A DNA stretch of 64,000 nt from Candidatus Syntrophopropionicum ammoniitolerans (GTDB lineage Bacteria; Bacillota; Desulfotomaculia; Desulfotomaculales; Pelotomaculaceae): contig JABMJD010000001.1 in the NCBI GenBank assembly GCA_013201395.1, positions 1 to 64,000 on the forward strand. Reading direction: 5' to 3'. Numbering within the stretch: position 1 is the first letter of the stretch; the number at the start of each line of letters is the position of its first letter. Made by a program: the position numbers and the translations under genes. Below the pieces are notes generated by a model that saw only the letters and a list, made by a program, of their open reading frames with translations, made no database searches and had not been told where the DNA came from. Positions 11,694 to 57,460 of this stretch are shown here, piece by piece.

Positions 11694-12851
11694 GTTGCAT
11701 CGCTGGACCCGCTGACAAGGGGACTGAAAGACGGCGGCATTGCCGACCTGACGAATGTAATTCTCCGTTGCATCGCTGGACCCGCTGACAAGGGGACTGA
11801 AAGGTTACCGCCCGCACAGGTATCATAGCCCTATTTTGCAGTTGCATCGCTGGACCCGCTGACAAGGGGACTGAAAGTACTCAGACAACACTGTTGCATG
11901 GCCACCCAACCAGGCGTTGCATCGCTGGACCCGCTGACAAGGGGACTGAAAGGTTGGCTATATGCCCAGGGCATACCGGACCATTACGCTGCGTTGCATC
12001 GCTGGACCCGCTGACAAGGGGACTGAAAGGCAATGATTGGGGTGCTTAAGAATGTTGACTCACTTTGTTGCATCGCTGGACCCGCTGACAAGGGGACTGA
12101 AAGTCCATAACTCTGTTCCTGTTGACACTGTTGTCGATACCGTTGCATCGCTGGACCCGCTGACAAGGGGACTGAAAGCAATTATAGGATCCCCTAATTC
12201 AAGCGCCGGGTTCCCTCGTTGCATCGCTGGACCCGCTGACAAGGGGACTGAAAGGCAAAAATCTACTGAGGCGGAGTGGGTGTGACTCCGTTGCATCGCT
12301 GGACCCGCTGACAAGGGGACTGAAAGAAACTCTCCGCACATTTTACGGATCAGATCAGCGTATGTTGCATCGCTGGACCCGCTGACAAGGGGACTGAAAG
12401 ACACCGACAGGCTAATTCTGTCCGTGAAAAATGTTTTGTTGCATCGCTGGACCCGCTGACAAGGGGACTGAAAGTTTATTTTTTGAGATAGCGTAGCCGT
12501 GCCTATGCCTATGTTGCATCGCTGGACCCGCTGACAAGGGGACTGAAAGTCATTAGGCCCACCCTGTTTCTCTAGCATATTGTCTTAGTTGCATCGCTGG
12601 ACCCGCTGACAAGGGGACTGAAAGCAAGGTAATATGTTGCGCTTGCCGCATCAATTGCGGGAGTTGCATCGCTGGACCCGCTGACAAGGGGACTGAAAGA
12701 TACTCCAGTTAGCCCGGGACCAGGGCTGGCAACCGGAGCGAGTTGCATCGCTGGACCCGCTGACAAGGGGACTGAAAGCTGCTAGGTGGTGACGCAGTTA
12801 TAATTGATACTAGCGTTGCATCGCTGGACCCGCTGACAAGGGGACTGAAAG
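11694..12851 (+). CRISPR. CRISPR array 2, 16 repeats / 15 spacers, repeat GTTGCATCGCTGGACCCGCTGACAAGGGGACTGAAAG
   Basis: Repeat starts read at 11694, 11767, 11841, 11915, 11993, 12067, 12142, 12218, 12290, 12364, 12438, 12513, 12588, 12663, 12742, 12815; spacers about 35-42 nt. Confidence 0.98.
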
Positions 12852-12872
12852 ACTATTACACCGCCAATTAAG

Positions 12873-15777: not shown

Positions 15778-15970
15778 AATAAAAGAAGGGTTTCCACTGC
15801 CCAGAGTGAAGATAGATATTGATATGGGTTTTTCCAGATTAATGGTTTTTCGCAAAAGGAAGGGGTTTTGGAACAGAAAAGGGATTTGCGAAATTTTGTG
15901 CCATTTAAGCCCGGCATGATAGCTTAAAAACCCAGTGTTGCCAAGGGTTTGAACCACCCGCCCGTAGTCG
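15778..15970 (+). promoter_or_regulatory. CRISPR leader of array 3
   Basis: About 190 bp, near-identical to the array 2 leader, ends ..CCCGTAGTCG immediately before the first repeat. Confidence 0.92.
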
Positions 15971-17760
15971 GTTACATTGCCACACCCGCTAACAAGGGGA
16001 CTGAAAGCTCCAGTCAATGGTATGGGGAACATCCTGGAACGTCTGTTACATTGCCACACCCGCTAACAAGGGGACTGAAAGGAAACTTGCTTGCTATTGC
16101 GGGGTACAACATCGTTGTAGTTACATTGCCACACCCGCTAACAAGGGGACTGAAAGTTCTCTCGATGGTCCGCAACTTTTCCTGGAATTCATCTGTTACA
16201 TTGCCACACCCGCTAACAAGGGGACTGAAAGCCGAGCACCAGTCGATTACCGGTGAGGAATATGTCGATGTTACATTGCCACACCCGCTAACAAGGGGAC
16301 TGAAAGCACCACTACCAACGCCTTTCATGTAATTTTCAATTTCGTTACATTGCCACACCCGCTAACAAGGGGACTGAAAGCTTTTATGGGCGGGGGCCGG
16401 ATTCGAACCGGCTTTGCCGTTACATTGCCACACCCGCTAACAAGGGGACTGAAAGGCTGTAAGAACCGTCTGACTATCAACAAGCTGACTACGTTACATT
16501 GCCACACCCGCTAACAAGGGGACTGAAAGTGATACTTTGTGGATGCAGGGGAAAGGAAGAACCCATGTTACATTGCCACACCCGCTAACAAGGGGACTGA
16601 AAGGATCAATATCTCTTGGTACCCGCCAGCTGTTTGCTGCGTTACATTGCCACACCCGCTAACAAGGGGACTGAAAGTTACATGACATTGTGAGACAAGT
16701 AGCCGAAAGCACCGAGTTACATTGCCACACCCGCTAACAAGGGGACTGAAAGACACACTGCAATACCGATCAGCGCGGGAAGATAAAGATGTTACATTGC
16801 CACACCCGCTAACAAGGGGACTGAAAGGATCAAGCAAATAGAGGAGTGCAGGAAGCCTTGAAAAGTTACATTGCCACACCCGCTAACAAGGGGACTGAAA
16901 GATATTGGGCACGGGCGGCAAACTGGATGATCTGGTAAGTTACATTGCCACACCCGCTAACAAGGGGACTGAAAGTTTGCGAATGCCGACTTTTGCTCTG
17001 CCCTTAGATCCTAGTTACATTGCCACACCCGCTAACAAGGGGACTGAAAGATTACACGAGTAAACCAATCAGTTATATTTCCTTGACGTTACATTGCCAC
17101 ACCCGCTAACAAGGGGACTGAAAGAACTATTTCCCGCATGTTAAATTCCTTCTGCTGTAAAGTTACATTGCCACACCCGCTAACAAGGGGACTGAAAGCT
17201 TAGAAGTTTCGGTTAAGGCAGTTATGCACATATCCGTTACATTGCCACACCCGCTAACAAGGGGACTGAAAGGCGGCGGGAGTGTGTTTGACGACGGGGA
17301 TATCCCGTTGTTACATTGCCACACCCGCTAACAAGGGGACTGAAAGCCTTGATTATTTAATTGAGAACCGTCTGTAGGAACTCTGTTACATTGCCACACC
17401 CGCTAACAAGGGGACTGAAAGATTTAGATATATTGCATATGTACATAATGCCTTGCATATGTACATAATGCCTTGCATATGTACATAATGCCTTCCGGTG
17501 TTACATTGCCACACCCGCTAACAAGGGGACTGAAAGGCTTGCTCAACCACAACTGGTTTTCTGACACTTTCAAAGTTACATTGCCACACCCGCTAACAAG
17601 GGGACTGAAAGTTATAATTCTTATCAAATTTAGTTCTCCTTTCTTTTCGTTACATTGCTATACCCGCTGACAAGGGGACCGAAAGTTTGGCACTTCTGCT
17701 ATCATATGGTTAGGATAAGAAGGTTGCAGTACCACTCCCGCTGATAAGGGGGACTGAAAG
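15971..17760 (+). CRISPR. CRISPR array 3, about 24 repeat units, repeat GTTACATTGCCACACCCGCTAACAAGGGGACTGAAAG
   Basis: 22 essentially identical repeats from 15971 to 17611, then a degenerate one at 17649 and an array-1-type one at 17723. Confidence 0.98.
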
Positions 17761-48030: not shown

Positions 48031-49296
48031 ATGCTGCCGGAAGGGGTGATTTTGTTGCGTATATTAACAGTGAGGGACCTAACAGAATATATTAAAAACC
48101 TGGTCGACAATGATTATCTTCTGGCAAATGTTTGGGTCAAAGGTGAAATATCCAATTTTAAAGCTGCCTCTTCCGGGCATTTATATTTTACTCTGAAGGA
48201 TCAGTCCGGCACCCTGAGGGTGGTTATGTTTCGTTCCAAAAGCCGGTCTCTGGTCTTCCGTCCCGGTAACGGTATGGCTGTGATCGTACGAGGTTATATT
48301 TCTGTTTATGAGCGTGATGGACTATATCAGCTTTATGCCGGGGAAATGCAGCCTGACGGGGCCGGGGCATTGCATCTGGCCTTTGAACAACTAAAAGAAA
48401 GGTTGCGGGAGGAAGGCCTTTTTGATCAGAAACACAAGAAACCTCTGCCTTTACTACCACACCGGATTGGGGTTGTTACTTCTTTAACGGGGGCGGCGGT
48501 GAGAGATATAGTGGAAATAATCAGACGCCGCTGGCCCGGGCTGCAGATCATTATCGTGCCTGTCCTGGTCCAGGGCGAAAGCGCCCCGGCGGATATCGCC
48601 GCCGGTATCCGTCTTTTGAACAGGTGGGGTCAGGCGGATTTGATTATTGCCGGTCGCGGCGGCGGTTCACTGGAGGAGCTCTGGGCTTTTAATACCGAGG
48701 TAGTAGCCCGCAGTATTTTTAAATCGAAAATACCGATTATTTCCGCCGTGGGACACGAAACAGACTACACCATCGCAGATTTTGTTGCCGATGCCCGGGC
48801 TGCGACCCCATCTGCAGCAGCGGAAATGGCTGTACCCGATAAAAAGGAAACAGATCGCTACCTGGGGGCTTTAAACAGCCGTTTGCATAGTGCTGTGATT
48901 GATCAGGCGGCAAGGTACAAGCAACGACTCCGCGCCTGTTTAACCAGCCGTGTTTTTACCAGGCCGGTGGATGTGATCTGCGGTACCAGGCAACAATCCC
49001 TTGATTTTATGCGCCACCGTCTGCAGCAGGCTATTACCGGCCTAACAGGGCAAGAAGAAAAAAGACTGGCCATCCTGGCCGGTAAACTACAGGCCTTAAG
49101 CCCTCTGGCTACCCTGGCCAGAGGGTACAGTATTTGTACTACTGCCGATGGCAAAAAGGTGATCACCAGTGCCGCTAATGTGGAAATTGGCAGTAGACTG
49201 GCTTTGCAGCTGCAAAAGGGCATATTGGAATGTGTTGTAAAAAGGAAAAATGAGAAATTAGCAAAAGGGGAACAAATAAATGGCAACCATCATTGA
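48031..49296 (+). CDS. xseA: Exodeoxyribonuclease VII large subunit
   Basis: LTVRDLTEYIKNLVDNDYLLANVWVKGEISNFKAASSGHLYFTLKD. Confidence 0.97.
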   Translation: MLPEGVILLRILTVRDLTEYIKNLVDNDYLLANVWVKGEISNFKAASSGHLYFTLKDQSGTLRVVMFRSKSRSLVFRPGNGMAVIVRGYISVYERDGLYQLYAGEMQPDGAGALHLAFEQLKERLREEGLFDQKHKKPLPLLPHRIGVVTSLTGAAVRDIVEIIRRRWPGLQIIIVPVLVQGESAPADIAAGIRLLNRWGQADLIIAGRGGGSLEELWAFNTEVVARSIFKSKIPIISAVGHETDYTIADFVADARAATPSAAAEMAVPDKKETDRYLGALNSRLHSAVIDQAARYKQRLRACLTSRVFTRPVDVICGTRQQSLDFMRHRLQQAITGLTGQEEKRLAILAGKLQALSPLATLARGYSICTTADGKKVITSAANVEIGSRLALQLQKGILECVVKRKNEKLAKGEQINGNHH

Positions 49297-50143
49297 AGGG
49301 AAAAAAGTGGCAGCAGCTATTAGGGAAGAAGTCAAGGAGGCCGTAGCCGGATTACGAGATGGGGGCCTCTGCCCCAGGCTAGCTGTTGTTTTAGTAGGGG
49401 ACGACCTGGCCTCCGTGTTGTATTCCCGTTCTATAAAAAAAGCCTGTGGCGCGGTTGCAGTGGAATGCGAATTATTTAAAATGCCCGCAGAATCCTCTGA
49501 AGACGAGGTTGTAGATCTACTGAAAAGACTAAATACAGATGATAGTATCCATGGGATCATGCTGGAGCTGCCTTTGCCGCCGGGAATGAACAAACAAAAG
49601 GTACTCCAGGCTATTTCACCACTCAAGGATGTAGACGGTGTTCACCCGATTAACAAAGGCTATATACTCAGTAACGGTGTGGGACTTTTTCCGACCACAC
49701 CCCAAAGTTGCATTGAAATAATGCTCCGTAACGGGATCGAAATTAGCGGCAAACACGCTGTACTCGTGGGCCGCGGTGAAACAGTGGGCAAACCCCTTAT
49801 TTTTATGATGCTCAACCAGAACGCCACAGTTACTGTCTGTCATACCAGGACTAAAGATTTGCCTTACCACACCCGCCAGGCAGATATATTAATATCGGCA
49901 GTGGGAAAGGCGGGGATGGTTACTGCCGATATGGTTAAACCCGGGGCCATTGTTGTAGACGCGGGTATAAACAGCAAACCCGGCGGAGGCATCTGTGGTG
50001 ATGTTGACTTCGTTAATGTAGAAAAAGTGGCCGGGGCAATTTCACCAGTACCCGGCGGTGTGGGCAGTATTACTACCAGTTTGATTTTGAAAAATATTAT
50101 AAAAGCCATCGAGCTGCAAAAAAACGCCAAGAATTGTATTTAA
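49280..50143 (+). CDS. folD: Methylenetetrahydrofolate dehydrogenase/cyclohydrolase
   Basis: PLKDVDGVHPINKGYI; ISPVPGGVGSITTSLILKN. Confidence 0.97.
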   Translation: MATIIEGKKVAAAIREEVKEAVAGLRDGGLCPRLAVVLVGDDLASVLYSRSIKKACGAVAVECELFKMPAESSEDEVVDLLKRLNTDDSIHGIMLELPLPPGMNKQKVLQAISPLKDVDGVHPINKGYILSNGVGLFPTTPQSCIEIMLRNGIEISGKHAVLVGRGETVGKPLIFMMLNQNATVTVCHTRTKDLPYHTRQADILISAVGKAGMVTADMVKPGAIVVDAGINSKPGGGICGDVDFVNVEKVAGAISPVPGGVGSITTSLILKNIIKAIELQKNAKNCI

Positions 50144-50182: not shown

Positions 50183-50467
50183 TTGGAGGGAGTTATGGCA
50201 GAAAAAGATAAGGTTGTCCTCAGTTTTGATCAGGCAATTTCCCAGTTGGAAGATGTTGTACAGGAATTGGAAGGCGGCGGGCTTTCTCTAGAGAAAGCGC
50301 TGGAATTATTTGCTCAAGGCATTGAGCTATCCCGTATATGCAGTCGGAATCTGCAAGCTGCCGAACAGCGTATAGCAATCCTGACCAAGGATGAGGGTGA
50401 GGGGTTGTTTCTAGAAGATATCGATTCCCTACCTGCTACGTCGGAAGGAAATAGAAGTGGATTTTAA
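50183..50467 (+). CDS. xseB: Exodeoxyribonuclease VII small subunit
   Basis: SFDQAISQLEDVVQELEGGGLSLEKALELFAQGIELSRIC. Confidence 0.95.
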   Translation: MEGVMAEKDKVVLSFDQAISQLEDVVQELEGGGLSLEKALELFAQGIELSRICSRNLQAAEQRIAILTKDEGEGLFLEDIDSLPATSEGNRSGF

Positions 50468-51338
50468 AGAAGAATTCAATAAAAAGGCCGCTGTTGTTAA
50501 TGAAGCCCTGGAGGGTTTTATGCCCTCGCCGGATGCCTATCCGCCCCTGATCCACCGGGCTATGCGCTACAGTGTGCTGGGTGGCGGGAAAAGGCTCAGG
50601 CCGGTCTTGCTGTTGGCGGCAGCGGAAATGGCCGGGGGAAGGACCCGGGATGTAATGCCGGCTGCCTGCGCAGTGGAGCTGATCCATTCCTACTCCCTCA
50701 TACATGATGACCTGCCCTTGATGGACAACGATGATTACCGGCGGGGCAAGCTTACCAACCATAAGGTTTATGGTGAAACTGTGGCCCTTTTGGCCGGCGA
50801 CGCTTTGCTGACCCTGGCTTTTTTATTATTGACGAAATGCAGGACAGACTATCCCCAGGATCTTGTCCGGGTGATTGGTGAAACAGCAGCCGGTGCCGGC
50901 ACCGGGGGGTTGATCGGTGGCCAGGTGGTAGACACCTTTTCAGTGGACAAAGAAATAGACACGAGCATATTAGAATATATCCATCGTAATAAGACCGGCT
51001 CCCTTTATCGGGTGGCAGTCAGGTGCGGGGCAATCCTGGCCGGCGCCGGCGAAAAGGATTTGGATTGTCTTACTGAATATGCAGAATATTTAGGCCTGGC
51101 ATTTCAGATCAAGGATGATATTCTTGATGTCACGGGAGATGAAAAAAGGCTGGGCAAACCGGTGGGTAGTGACAAAAGAAATAAGAAAGCCACTTATCCG
51201 GCCCTGTTTGGCCTGGAAGGCGCCAAAAATAAAGCCCGGTTGGCGGTAAAAAAAGCAGAGGAAGCCCTGGAACCCTTTGGTAGTGAGGCTGATTTTCTCC
51301 GGCTACTTGTAGAGTATGTGATAAATCGCGACTTTTAA
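50457..51338 (+). CDS. ispA: Polyprenyl (farnesyl) diphosphate synthase
   Basis: MRYSVLGGGKRLRPVLLLAAAE; HDDLPLMDNDDYRRG; QIKDDILDVTGD. Confidence 0.96.
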   Translation: MDFKEEFNKKAAVVNEALEGFMPSPDAYPPLIHRAMRYSVLGGGKRLRPVLLLAAAEMAGGRTRDVMPAACAVELIHSYSLIHDDLPLMDNDDYRRGKLTNHKVYGETVALLAGDALLTLAFLLLTKCRTDYPQDLVRVIGETAAGAGTGGLIGGQVVDTFSVDKEIDTSILEYIHRNKTGSLYRVAVRCGAILAGAGEKDLDCLTEYAEYLGLAFQIKDDILDVTGDEKRLGKPVGSDKRNKKATYPALFGLEGAKNKARLAVKKAEEALEPFGSEADFLRLLVEYVINRDF

Positions 51339-51422
51339 ATAGTAGACTGGCCGGCATATTCCATCATAGCCGGGGGGTCAGGTGGCAGGTCCGGGCTAGT
51401 TAGTTGTATAATATAGCGGTGT

Positions 51423-51451
51423 TTGATTATGCATCGCTATTTTGTTATAAT
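51423..51451 (+). promoter_or_regulatory. Sigma-A-like promoter for the OLE RNA
   Basis: TTGATT (51423-51428), 17-bp spacer, TATAAT (51446-51451). Confidence 0.7.
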
Positions 51452-51457
51452 TAAAAA

Positions 51458-52085
51458 TTGTAAAAGTTTTTACGATAAATGATGCAGTATCCTAGTCAGA
51501 TAAACCTTTTTGAAGGCGGGCCTAAAAATCCGTCAAAGGGCATATCGATGAAGTTCCTGGTGCTGGCTGCTGACGCCCAGTTGGGGGCTGGTACTGGGAG
51601 TTAAGGGGGGAGGGCGACCCGCAATGGCATGCGGGCGTTGACCCTGCCCCCGTGGAGACCCAAGTTTGTGGGTAGTCACACCATTTTTTGGGTGGTCAAC
51701 TATGGCTTGGGATTGAACCTGCATGTGGTTACCGCTGCGTGCAGTGTAGCCTGCCTTGAGTGGGATTGGCGAATTTCTAACGTGCAAAGGCTGTTCATGG
51801 GCCCATGAACGGGTTTTGTTGAATGAAACCTTTCTTGCAAAAGAGGTTAGAAAAGGGAAGTCTGTTGAGGAAAACTCCTAGGCTGTCCGGAATTCTAGGG
51901 CAGGCCGGGGATTGCAGTGTGGACTAAGTGGTAATCTAGCTCCGGAACCGGTAACGGCCGGGAACAGCTTTAAAGGGAAACCGCCGGTTTTGGCGACAGC
52001 CGGCAGTTGTTTGGGAAAACCTGCTAGACCTAAGCCGCAATATTTATCCGGTCTGCTATCATTTATCACATTACATAGGTCGGCT
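51458..52085 (+). ncRNA. ole: OLE (ornate large extremophilic) RNA, boundaries approximate
   Basis: Long GC-rich, structured, ORF-poor ~630-nt interval between ispA and a small membrane-protein gene, followed by dxs: the known ole-oapA context; own promoter. Confidence 0.82.
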
Positions 52086-52107
52086 TGCATTTAAGTCCTT
52101 TTTTGAG

Positions 52108-52713
52108 GTGAAATTTTTGGGAAACAAAAAATCTACCGTTTCCGGTAGGTATATTGTTTTTGTCGGGATAGTATCGTTGCTTTTGGCAGTGGTATTCACC
52201 TTTTTTTCAGAGTATTTTACCTCAAAATTAAATAGTGTTGTTTTGGCTCTTGTTTTTTTGCTTTTTGTAATCCTAATCAATATAGCGGCGGATGTAGTGG
52301 GTACGGCGGTGACTGCGGCCTCTCATGTTCCTTTTAACGCCAAATCAGCCAAGAAAATTAGGGGAGCGTCTCACGGTCTGCAGCTGGTCAAAAATGCCGA
52401 TAAGGTTGCTAATTTAACGAACGATATGTTGAGTGATATCACTACGACCGTAGGAGGGGCCCTGGGCATCTCCATTGCTGTACAGGTGATTAGCCTGAAT
52501 CCCGGTATAAGCCAGTTCTGGTTAAATATCCTAATCACCGCATTTATTGCTGCGGTGATTGTTTCCGCCAAGGCATATTCCAAAAAAATTGCCTTGTCTT
52601 ACCCCAACGATGTAATTTTTTTTGTCGGGAGGATCCTGGCTACGATAGAAGAAACAACAGGTTATAGCCCATTTAGAAAGAAACGCGTATCCAGGGGAAA
52701 AAGGGGTGAATAA
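52108..52713 (+). CDS. oapA: OLE-associated membrane protein OapA-like
   Basis: About 200-aa multi-TM protein (FVILINIAADVVGTAVTAASHVPFNAKSAKKIRGASHGLQLVKNADKVANLTNDMLSDITTTVGGALGISIAVQV) between the ncRNA and dxs. Confidence 0.82.
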   Translation: MKFLGNKKSTVSGRYIVFVGIVSLLLAVVFTFFSEYFTSKLNSVVLALVFLLFVILINIAADVVGTAVTAASHVPFNAKSAKKIRGASHGLQLVKNADKVANLTNDMLSDITTTVGGALGISIAVQVISLNPGISQFWLNILITAFIAAVIVSAKAYSKKIALSYPNDVIFFVGRILATIEETTGYSPFRKKRVSRGKRGE

Positions 52714-52716
52714 GGA

Positions 52717-54642
52717 ATGTCCGATTTCCTCAAAAAAATTAACTCCCCAAAGGACGTACAAAGTCTTGGTTATTCACAACTAAATAAACTAGCTGAAGAA
52801 ATTCGCCGACTGATCATTGATACCGTAGCCAAAAATGGTGGGCATTTGGCGCCTAGTTTGGGTGTAGTGGAACTAACTCTAGGTCTATATAAGGCCTTTC
52901 ATACACCCCCGGATAAGATTCTCTGGGATGTGGGGCACCAAAGTTATGCCCATAAAATCATCACTGGGCGCCGGGAAGAGTTTTGTACATTGCGCCAGTT
53001 CGGGGGCCTCAGTGGTTTTTTGTGTCCTAAAGAAAGTAAATATGATTTTTTTAAGACCGGACACAGCAGTACCTCTATTTCAGCGGCCCTGGGTATGGCT
53101 GTGGCCCGGGATTTAAATGGCGAAAAACATAAAATAGTAACAGTGATAGGTGATGGGGCACTAACGGGTGGTATGGCTTTTGAGGCCCTTAATAATGCCG
53201 GACACCTAAAAAAAGACCTGATCGTGGTACTGAATGATAACGAGATGTCGATAGCGCAAAATGTAGGTGCCTTATCCGGATACCTGGCCAGGTTACGTAC
53301 AGATCCCATGTACACCAGGGGTAAGGAAGAACTGGAACAACTAATGCGCAAAATACCTGTGGGCACTGCTTTACTGCGCCTTGGTTTAAGGCTCAGAGAC
53401 AGCCTGAAATACCTGGTGGTGCCCGGAATGATTTTTGAAGAGATGGGGTTTATATATCTGGGCCCGGTAGATGGGCATGATATCAAAAAGATTGCCAGTG
53501 TGTTGCAGCGGGCTAAAAACATAAAAGGACCGGTTTTGGTCCATGTCTTAACAAAAAAGGGCAAAGGTTACCAGCCTGCGGAGAAAAATCCCGGCCGTTT
53601 TCACGGTGTGGGCCCCTTTGATCAAGCCAGCGGCAAAGTTTATAAAGGTAGTAACATTCCCTCATACACGGATATTTTTGGCCGGACTATGATCAGGCTG
53701 GCCCAAAAGCATGAAAACATTGTGGCCATCACTGCGGCGATGACCGGTGGTACCGGACTGACCAATTTTGCTCGACTTTATCCGCGGCGTTTTTTTGATG
53801 TGGGTATTGCCGAACAGCATGGGGTTACTATGGCTGCCGGTTTGGCCGCCGGCGGTTATCGGCCGGTAGTGGCCATCTATTCAACATTTTTACAGCGTGC
53901 CTACGACCAAATTCTCCATGATGTTTGCCTGCAAAAACTGCCGGTAACCTTTGCTATCGATCGGGCGGGTATAGTGGGGCAAGACGGTCCTACCCATCAT
54001 GGCCTTTTTGATTTTTCCTATCTACGACCGCTGCCAAACATGGTAATTATGGCGCCCAAGGATGAAAATGAACTGCAGCATATGCTGGCAACGGCTACCA
54101 GGCATCCGGGCCCGGTTGCCTTGCGTTATCCACGTGGGACTGGGGTCGGCAGTGTACTGGATGAAAAATTTATGAGAATCCCTATTGGACAGGCTGAGGT
54201 ATTAAAAAAAGGGTCTAATGTGGCCCTGCTGGCTATCGGCAACACTGTACGGCCGGCTTTAGAGGCTGCGGTAGCCCTGAAGGATCGGGGAATCAGCGCT
54301 GCTGTTATTAATGCTCGGTTTGTGAAACCTCTGGATGAGGAATGTATATTGTACTATGCCAAACGGACCGGTGTACTATTTACCCTGGAGGAGCATGTCC
54401 TACAGGGCGGCTTTGGCAGTGCTGTACTGGAATTGCTTTCTGCCAGGGGCTTAAGGAATATCAGGGTCCATCGTTTTGGGATTCCGGATGTTTTTGTGGA
54501 ACATGGCAGCCCGGCTGAACTGAGAGAAAAGTACGGGCTAACGGTAAGGCATATAATTAGAACCGTAGCCAATAAAATGGCACACATAAAACGTGCTAAA
54601 CGGCTTAAAAATATTAAGGGTTTTGATACTAAAACATGTTAA
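52717..54642 (+). CDS. dxs: 1-deoxy-D-xylulose-5-phosphate synthase
   Basis: [61 protein letters not shown]. Confidence 0.97.
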
Positions 54643-54693: not shown

Positions 54694-55539
54694 GTGAGCA
54701 CAGATATCCAGGTAGGGGGGGATCCTGCTGTGTCCCAAAAAAAACAACGATTAGACGTCAGGCTGGCCGAAGAGGGCTGCTACCCGAGCAGGGAAAAAGC
54801 ACGGGCAGCGGTTATGGCCGGTTTGATTTTTGTTGATGGGCAAAAGGTAGACAAACCAGGTTCGATGGTTAAACCCCAATCCAAGGTTGAGGTGCGTGGC
54901 CCATCCTTGATTTATGTCAGCCGGGGCGGGCTTAAATTGGAAAAGGCTATAAAATCCTTTTGCCTGACCCTACATGACCGGGTGGTGCTGGATGTGGGTG
55001 CCTCCACAGGCGGGTTTACCGACTGTGCTCTCAGAAATGGGGCCAGGTTGGTATATGCGGTGGATGTTGGTTATGGCCAGCTGGACTGGCAATTGCGGAA
55101 TGATCCCCGGGTGGTAGTTTTAGAACGCACCAATATTCGCTATTTAAAAGAGGAAGCCTTGTCGGAAACCCCTGACTTTATCACTATTGACGTTTCCTTT
55201 ATCTCCTTATCCAAAGTACTGCCCCGAATAGGTGCCCTCACTGCAGCAGATGCGGCAGGAGTGGTCCTGGTTAAACCCCAATTTGAGGCGGGCCGGGATC
55301 AGGTAGGTAAAAAGGGTGTGGTCAGGGATCCAGCTGTTCATGAGGCGGTGCTGAATGCTGTTGCGGATACGATTGAGGGACTGGGTTGGGTGATTGGCGG
55401 AGTGGATTATTCCCCCCTCACCGGGCCCCAGGGGAATATTGAGTTCCTAATTTATTTTCAGAAAGATGGCCTGCCGGCGGACTACGATATTGGGCAGGTC
55501 GTAAGAACAGCACATACCAATTTAGGTCCCCAGATTTAA
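54694..55539 (+). CDS. tlyA: TlyA family rRNA (cytidine-2'-O)-methyltransferase
   Basis: QRLDVRLAEEGCYPSREKARAAVMAGLIFVDGQ (S4); VLDVGASTGGFTDCALRNGA. Confidence 0.95.
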   Translation: MSTDIQVGGDPAVSQKKQRLDVRLAEEGCYPSREKARAAVMAGLIFVDGQKVDKPGSMVKPQSKVEVRGPSLIYVSRGGLKLEKAIKSFCLTLHDRVVLDVGASTGGFTDCALRNGARLVYAVDVGYGQLDWQLRNDPRVVVLERTNIRYLKEEALSETPDFITIDVSFISLSKVLPRIGALTAADAAGVVLVKPQFEAGRDQVGKKGVVRDPAVHEAVLNAVADTIEGLGWVIGGVDYSPLTGPQGNIEFLIYFQKDGLPADYDIGQVVRTAHTNLGPQI

Positions 55540-56440: not shown

Positions 56441-57008
56441 GGGCCTGGACAATGTCGTTCATCTGGTGCAGCATTTTTTGTCCCCTTCTGTACAAAATGG
56501 GGGGACAGTTGTTGATGCTACTGCCGGTCGAGGGCACGATACCCTTTATCTGGCCGGGTTGGTCGGTCCCAGTGGCCGGGTTTTTTCCTTTGATGTGCAG
56601 GAAGATGCGCTGCAGTCTACACGTTCGCTGCTGGAAGGTGCCGGTGTGGCTGACCGGGTTACATTGGTAAAAGACTGTCATGGAAATATGGAACATTATG
56701 TTTTCGGTCCGGTGGATAGTGTTATTTTTAATTTGGGTTACCTGCCCGGTGGTGAACATTCGGTAATCACAGAGCCTGCTTCGACTGTGCGGGCCCTGCA
56801 GGCTGCTCTGGGTCTACTGCGTTCCGGCGGCCGGGTGGGTATGGTGATTTACCCCGGACACCAGGGAGGCAGGGAGGAGTATGAGGCTGTAGAAAAAATA
56901 TGCAGCGGCCTGGACAAGACACTTTTTAATGTGCTTAAAATAGGTTTATTAAACAGGGCTGCCACCGCACCTGTGGTGATTATTATTGAAAAGGCGGATG
57001 CTAGATGA
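56433..57008 (+). CDS. YtqB-like class I SAM-dependent methyltransferase
   Basis: [55 protein letters not shown]. Confidence 0.92.
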
Positions 57009-57460
57009 AAGTTGGGCGGCAGCGTAAGGTACTGGAAATAATTAGACGCCGGCGTATCGCCACCCAGGAAGAGTTGTCCGGCGAACTAAAAAAAAATGGC
57101 TATAATGTTACTCAGGCTACTATTTCTCGGGATATTAAGGAGTTAGGTTTAGTAAAAATACCCTTTGATAATAATGAACTCTATTATGCTCGCCCGGGTG
57201 AAAACCCAGTGCCCACCAGCAAAGAACGTCTGAGAAAGGTGTTTCTTGACTCTGTGATTGGATTTGATGCTAGTGAAAATTTGATTATTTTGAAGACAAA
57301 CCCTGGGGGTGCCCAGGGTGTTGCCTCAGCCATTGATCAGAGTGGCTGGGAGGAGATTATTGGTACGGTAGGTGGGGATGATACGATACTTGTAGTGGTC
57401 AAGCCCAAAGAAGCCACCGGCCTGGTATTGAAAAAATTTGGGGACCTACTCGGGGGGTAG
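57005..57460 (+). CDS. argR: Arginine repressor
   Basis: RQRKVLEIIRRRRIATQEELSGELKKNGYNVTQATISRDIKELGLVKIP. Confidence 0.96.
   Translation: MKVGRQRKVLEIIRRRRIATQEELSGELKKNGYNVTQATISRDIKELGLVKIPFDNNELYYARPGENPVPTSKERLRKVFLDSVIGFDASENLIILKTNPGGAQGVASAIDQSGWEEIIGTVGGDDTILVVVKPKEATGLVLKKFGDLLGG

Follow-up and report, generated by a model that had tools for sequence, protein, structure and literature searches.

The stretch between ispA and dxs in the window (the whole piece of DNA analysed here, 64 kb in length) raises the question of whether it encodes a complete OLE RNA and whether the gene behind it is that of the RNA's partner protein, OapA. OLE, a large noncoding RNA of bacteria, assembles with proteins into a particle bound to the membrane; it ranks among the largest structured RNAs in bacteria for which a biochemical function is still to be established. 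A first-pass annotation had proposed a probable OLE RNA in this gap with oapA immediately downstream, and had called for a covariance-model search and for a check of the downstream protein against the OapA family. As set out below, the gap holds an OLE RNA gene that is complete and ordinary, next to the gene of the RNA's known partner OapA (Table 1).

Comparison of the 64-kb window with all 4227 Rfam families yielded a single match above the gathering score. This match, to the OLE model (RF01071), runs from 51463 to 52078 on the forward strand and covers model positions 1 to 616 without truncation, with a score of 523.2 bits against a gathering score of 50 bits and an E-value of 9.5e-152. The genome contains no other OLE copy. 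The gap in which the first-pass annotation had placed the RNA, 51339-52107, is real, extending from the end of the ispA ORF (51338) to the next ORF, and the full-length, highly significant match bears out the proposal itself; the RNA proper, however, occupies a narrower interval than the gap. The strand folds with an energy of -245 kcal/mol, compared to -213 (sd 7.1) for 20 dinucleotide shuffles (z = -4.5), and out-folds all 20 of them.

Table 1. Features of the OLE locus (positions in the window) and the evidence on which each was placed.
Feature	Position	Strand	Evidence
xseA	48031..49296	+	TIGR00237, E 1.1e-144
folD	49280..50143	+	PF02882, PF00763
xseB	50183..50467	+	TIGR01280
ispA, farnesyl diphosphate synthase	50457..51338	+	NF045485, E 1.2e-108
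Probable ole promoter, sigma-A-type, TTGATT-17-TATAAT, extended -10 (TG before)	51423..51451	+	Motif scan and conservation
ole, full-length OLE RNA gene	51463..52078	+	RF01071; 145/156 standard pairs; 0 departures at 180 conserved columns
Long hairpin, P5 region	51554..51600	+	Transferred structure
P6 stem, described bS21 site	51605..51651	+	Transferred structure; site from PMC12054373
3' hairpin, probably P13, described OapB-binding region	51983..52004	+	Position; literature (PMC9723947)
oapA, OLE-associated protein A, 198 aa from TTG (201 aa from GTG 52108)	52117..52713	+	Synteny, motif, fold
dxs, 1-deoxy-D-xylulose-5-phosphate synthase	52717..54642	+	TIGR00204, E 7.5e-263
tlyA-family rRNA methyltransferase	54694..55539	+	TIGR00478, E 3.4e-79

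When the Rfam consensus structure was transferred onto the window sequence, 156 of the 159 consensus pairs had letters on both sides, and 145 of these 156 are standard pairs. Among 27 OLE sequences from different genomes, 105 of the 156 pairs changed on both sides and 88.6% of cells pair. In slid controls, where the partner was moved by 1-3 columns, 40-48% of cells pair (at most 47.5%) and 47-64 pairs change on both sides; the structure being taken from the Rfam model, this control somewhat favours it, but the margin is large. At each of the 180 columns with 97% conservation or more among 61 OLE sequences, the window sequence has the conserved letter. It therefore combines the highly conserved nucleotides of the OLE class with its covarying secondary structure. 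It shares with RF01071 the full-length match, the conserved positions, the pairs, the promoter of its own, the neighbourhood and the adjacency to oapA, and differs from it by a 9-nt insertion in a hairpin loop near 51677-51694.

The described protein-binding regions can be located on this structure. The segments flanking P5, CGATGAAG (from about 51546) and GTGGAGA (51652 on), correspond to the kink-turn strands that have been assigned to OapC (PMC9723947, PMC12286853) and that are near-invariant among the 61 OLE sequences. The anti-Shine-Dalgarno mimic CCUCC described for P6 is absent from the window OLE (region 51640-51654). The same motif (CCTCC in DNA) occurs in 9 of the 61 sequences and is missing from 51 of the 60 besides the window's own; the exact sequence is thus no general feature of OLE. 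Binding of bS21 tolerates changes that keep pairing (PMC12054373).

Besides the RNA gene and its conserved fold, the computation shows that the genome encodes all the partner proteins. OapB and OapC, common but not obligatory companions of the OLE class, are both present. OapB is a 94-aa protein matching the crystallised OLE-associated protein B (7k9b, E 5.8e-12); its gene lies in a ribosomal-protein cluster, between ORFs that are methionine-aminopeptidase-like and infA-like by their sequence character. A weak KOW match on contig 8 was also considered as OapB and rejected, as it lies opposite a carboxylase-like ORF. OapC/YbxF (82 aa; best PDB match YbxF) is encoded between rpoC and rpsL, and a gene for bS21 is present as well. 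A CNNM/MpfA protein was not found in this genome, which is about 91% complete, making the absence provisional. Absence of CNNM/MpfA has been published for many OLE genomes, and an anticorrelation has been reported (PMC11332333).

Within the 124 nt that precede OLE lies a promoter-like element that is conserved in relatives and ends at 51451, 11 nt ahead of the first base of the model. Of 100 OLE loci, 66 carry the motif TGnTATAAT no more than 60 nt ahead of the RNA, where shuffling predicts about 0.6. A hairpin at 51413-51440 that scored as a terminator was rejected, its second arm being lost in more distant family members; because this arm is not kept whereas the -35/-10 pair is, the region was read as a promoter. 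That ole carries its own promoter inside a large operon has already been stated for H. halodurans (PMC9723947). Lying directly upstream of oapA-dxs on the same strand, with a promoter of its own, the element could also be a long cis-regulatory, riboswitch-like leader of these genes instead of a free-standing noncoding RNA. We regard such a leader as very improbable, as the matched model is that of OLE, which in H. halodurans is a discrete membrane-localised RNA of ~630 nt (PMC9723947, PMC12265935), and a simple scan listed neither a strong terminator nor a hairpin that would sequester the oapA start.

The gene order, xseA-folD-xseB-ispA-[OLE]-oapA-dxs-tlyA, agrees up to dxs with the one given by the first-pass annotation, and every gene in it except oapA is supported by Pfam or NCBIfam. 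Where OLE loci have enough flanking sequence, ispA is found upstream of the RNA in 60 of 67 cases and dxs is found downstream of it in 73 of 79; the locus has the adjacency to oapA within an ispA/dxs/folD/xse neighbourhood that characterises the class. The literature connects ArgR with the OLE complex (PMC12265935). An ORF that is argR-like by appearance (57005-57460) is seen a few genes downstream of the locus.

No Pfam or NCBIfam model names the ORF at 52108-52713, and profiles built from 12 or 33 OapA proteins found no PDB chain by sequence. Its assignment to OapA thus rests on synteny, motif and fold. An oapA homologue was found directly downstream of OLE, on the same strand, in every one of 31 loci, this one included (E below 1e-17); conversely, each of the 38 genomes to which an OapA homologue led has OLE. 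The protein is of the family's usual size, about 200 aa, and carries the DxxxD motif, D103xxxD107 (numbered from TTG 52117; D106/D110 from the GTG), both aspartates being invariant in 111 proteins. OapA is described as CNNM-related but with a DxxxD motif absent from CNNM domains (PMC11332333). The AlphaFold model of the window protein (pLDDT 84) is all-helical with several membrane-length helices; its top four PDB matches are CorB/CNNM chains (probability 0.99-1.00, best E 0.012, TM 0.42-0.47), a weak but specific resemblance of the predicted fold. The CNNM family PF01595 gave no Pfam match for the window OapA and was matched weakly by 8 of 12 relatives (E up to 0.01). The ORF is therefore OapA, as the first-pass annotation had suspected of a multi-membrane-span protein of ~200 aa, and the family check places it among the proteins directly downstream of OLE. 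Relatives share a GAGGTG Shine-Dalgarno sequence, a TTG start behind it and an N-terminus of the form G-N-x-K-S, so that translation more probably begins at TTG 52117 than at GTG 52108.

The window OapA departs from its family at several near-invariant positions. All six readable genomes of its genus have the motif DMLSD where other members have DVIGD-like sequences, the interior VIG of the family being replaced by MLS; the same genus has S(A/G)KAxSK instead of GGKAxGK, the last Gly changing to Ser at residue 155. In the window, the DMLSD motif lies at 52417-52440 (OapA residues 101-108). Being common to all six genomes, it represents a lineage trait and not a sequencing error, and it is the one unusual point of the locus. 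Loci from Pelotomaculum and other Desulfotomaculaceae keep the motif Gly (DVIGD-type), DMLSD being confined to the window's genus. These departures, together with a score below the Pfam CNNM model, suggest that the exact activity of the protein could differ. It is conceivable, though improbable, that the changed OapA core of this genus alters the transport or signalling output of the particle while the canonical RNA architecture is kept. Natural variation in the DxxxD motif offers a small lead for structure-function work.

Drift of the oapA product at conserved positions could also point to a degenerate, non-functional OLE relic retained merely as the oapA leader. This seems still less probable than a regulatory leader: the strongly conserved OLE positions are all intact, the pairs and the promoter are kept, and OapB, OapC and bS21 are present. 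That the gap codes for protein has a negligible chance of being right, since its short ORFs (60-84 codons), which the first-pass annotation had likewise found not credible, gain stops and change length in close relatives when tested, whereas the RNA pairs covary. We thus consider it nearly certain that the locus holds an OLE RNA gene that is complete and most likely functional, with oapA behind it; none of the evidence contradicts this identity.

The nearest OLE sequences, 82-84% identical, come from Desulfotomaculaceae/Pelotomaculum records, and the source organism lies near Pelotomaculum (Desulfotomaculaceae). The OLE loci of these relatives have the same synteny and the same TTG start of oapA. 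Of the "extremophilic/anaerobic Firmicutes" context initially invoked, the synteny stands but "extremophilic" does not, these nearest relatives being anaerobic. OLE was found in 218 of 300 genomes drawn evenly across the phylum and in none of 14 control genomes. The locus is a textbook OLE-oapA arrangement of an already described RNA class, and interest attaches to the class, not to the instance. It contributes a further complete set of OLE parts, in which every known partner gene is present, from a lineage of anaerobic Desulfotomaculaceae, and by itself leaves existing knowledge of OLE unchanged.

By analogy with other species, from which we infer promoter use as well as the later steps, the OLE RNA would probably be transcribed both from the promoter in front of it and by read-through of the ispA-dxs cluster. 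It would fold into its conserved structure and dimerise, as OLE has been reported to do (PMC12286853), and OapA, which binds OLE at P2/P4a, would anchor it to the membrane, where OLE is held (PMC12265935). The RNA may also recruit OapC at the P5 kink-turn and OapB at P13 (both sites from PMC9723947) and possibly bS21 at P6 (PMC12054373). The resulting particle might aid adaptation to Mg2+ excess, cold, alcohols and poor carbon sources, in line with the support of growth by OLE under Mg2+, cold, ethanol and carbon stress (PMC11332333).

Elsewhere in the window are two CRISPR-like arrays, at 11841-12852 and about 15970-17700, with a spacing of about 75 nt. Their 37-nt repeats are related but distinct: GTTGCATCGCTGGACCCGCTGACAAGGGGACTGAAAG (14 copies) and GTTACATTGCCACACCCGCTAACAAGGGGACTGAAAG (about 23 copies). 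Near the second array, at 17433-17494, a 20-nt unit, TTGCATATGTACATAATGCC, is repeated 3.1 times with no mismatch.
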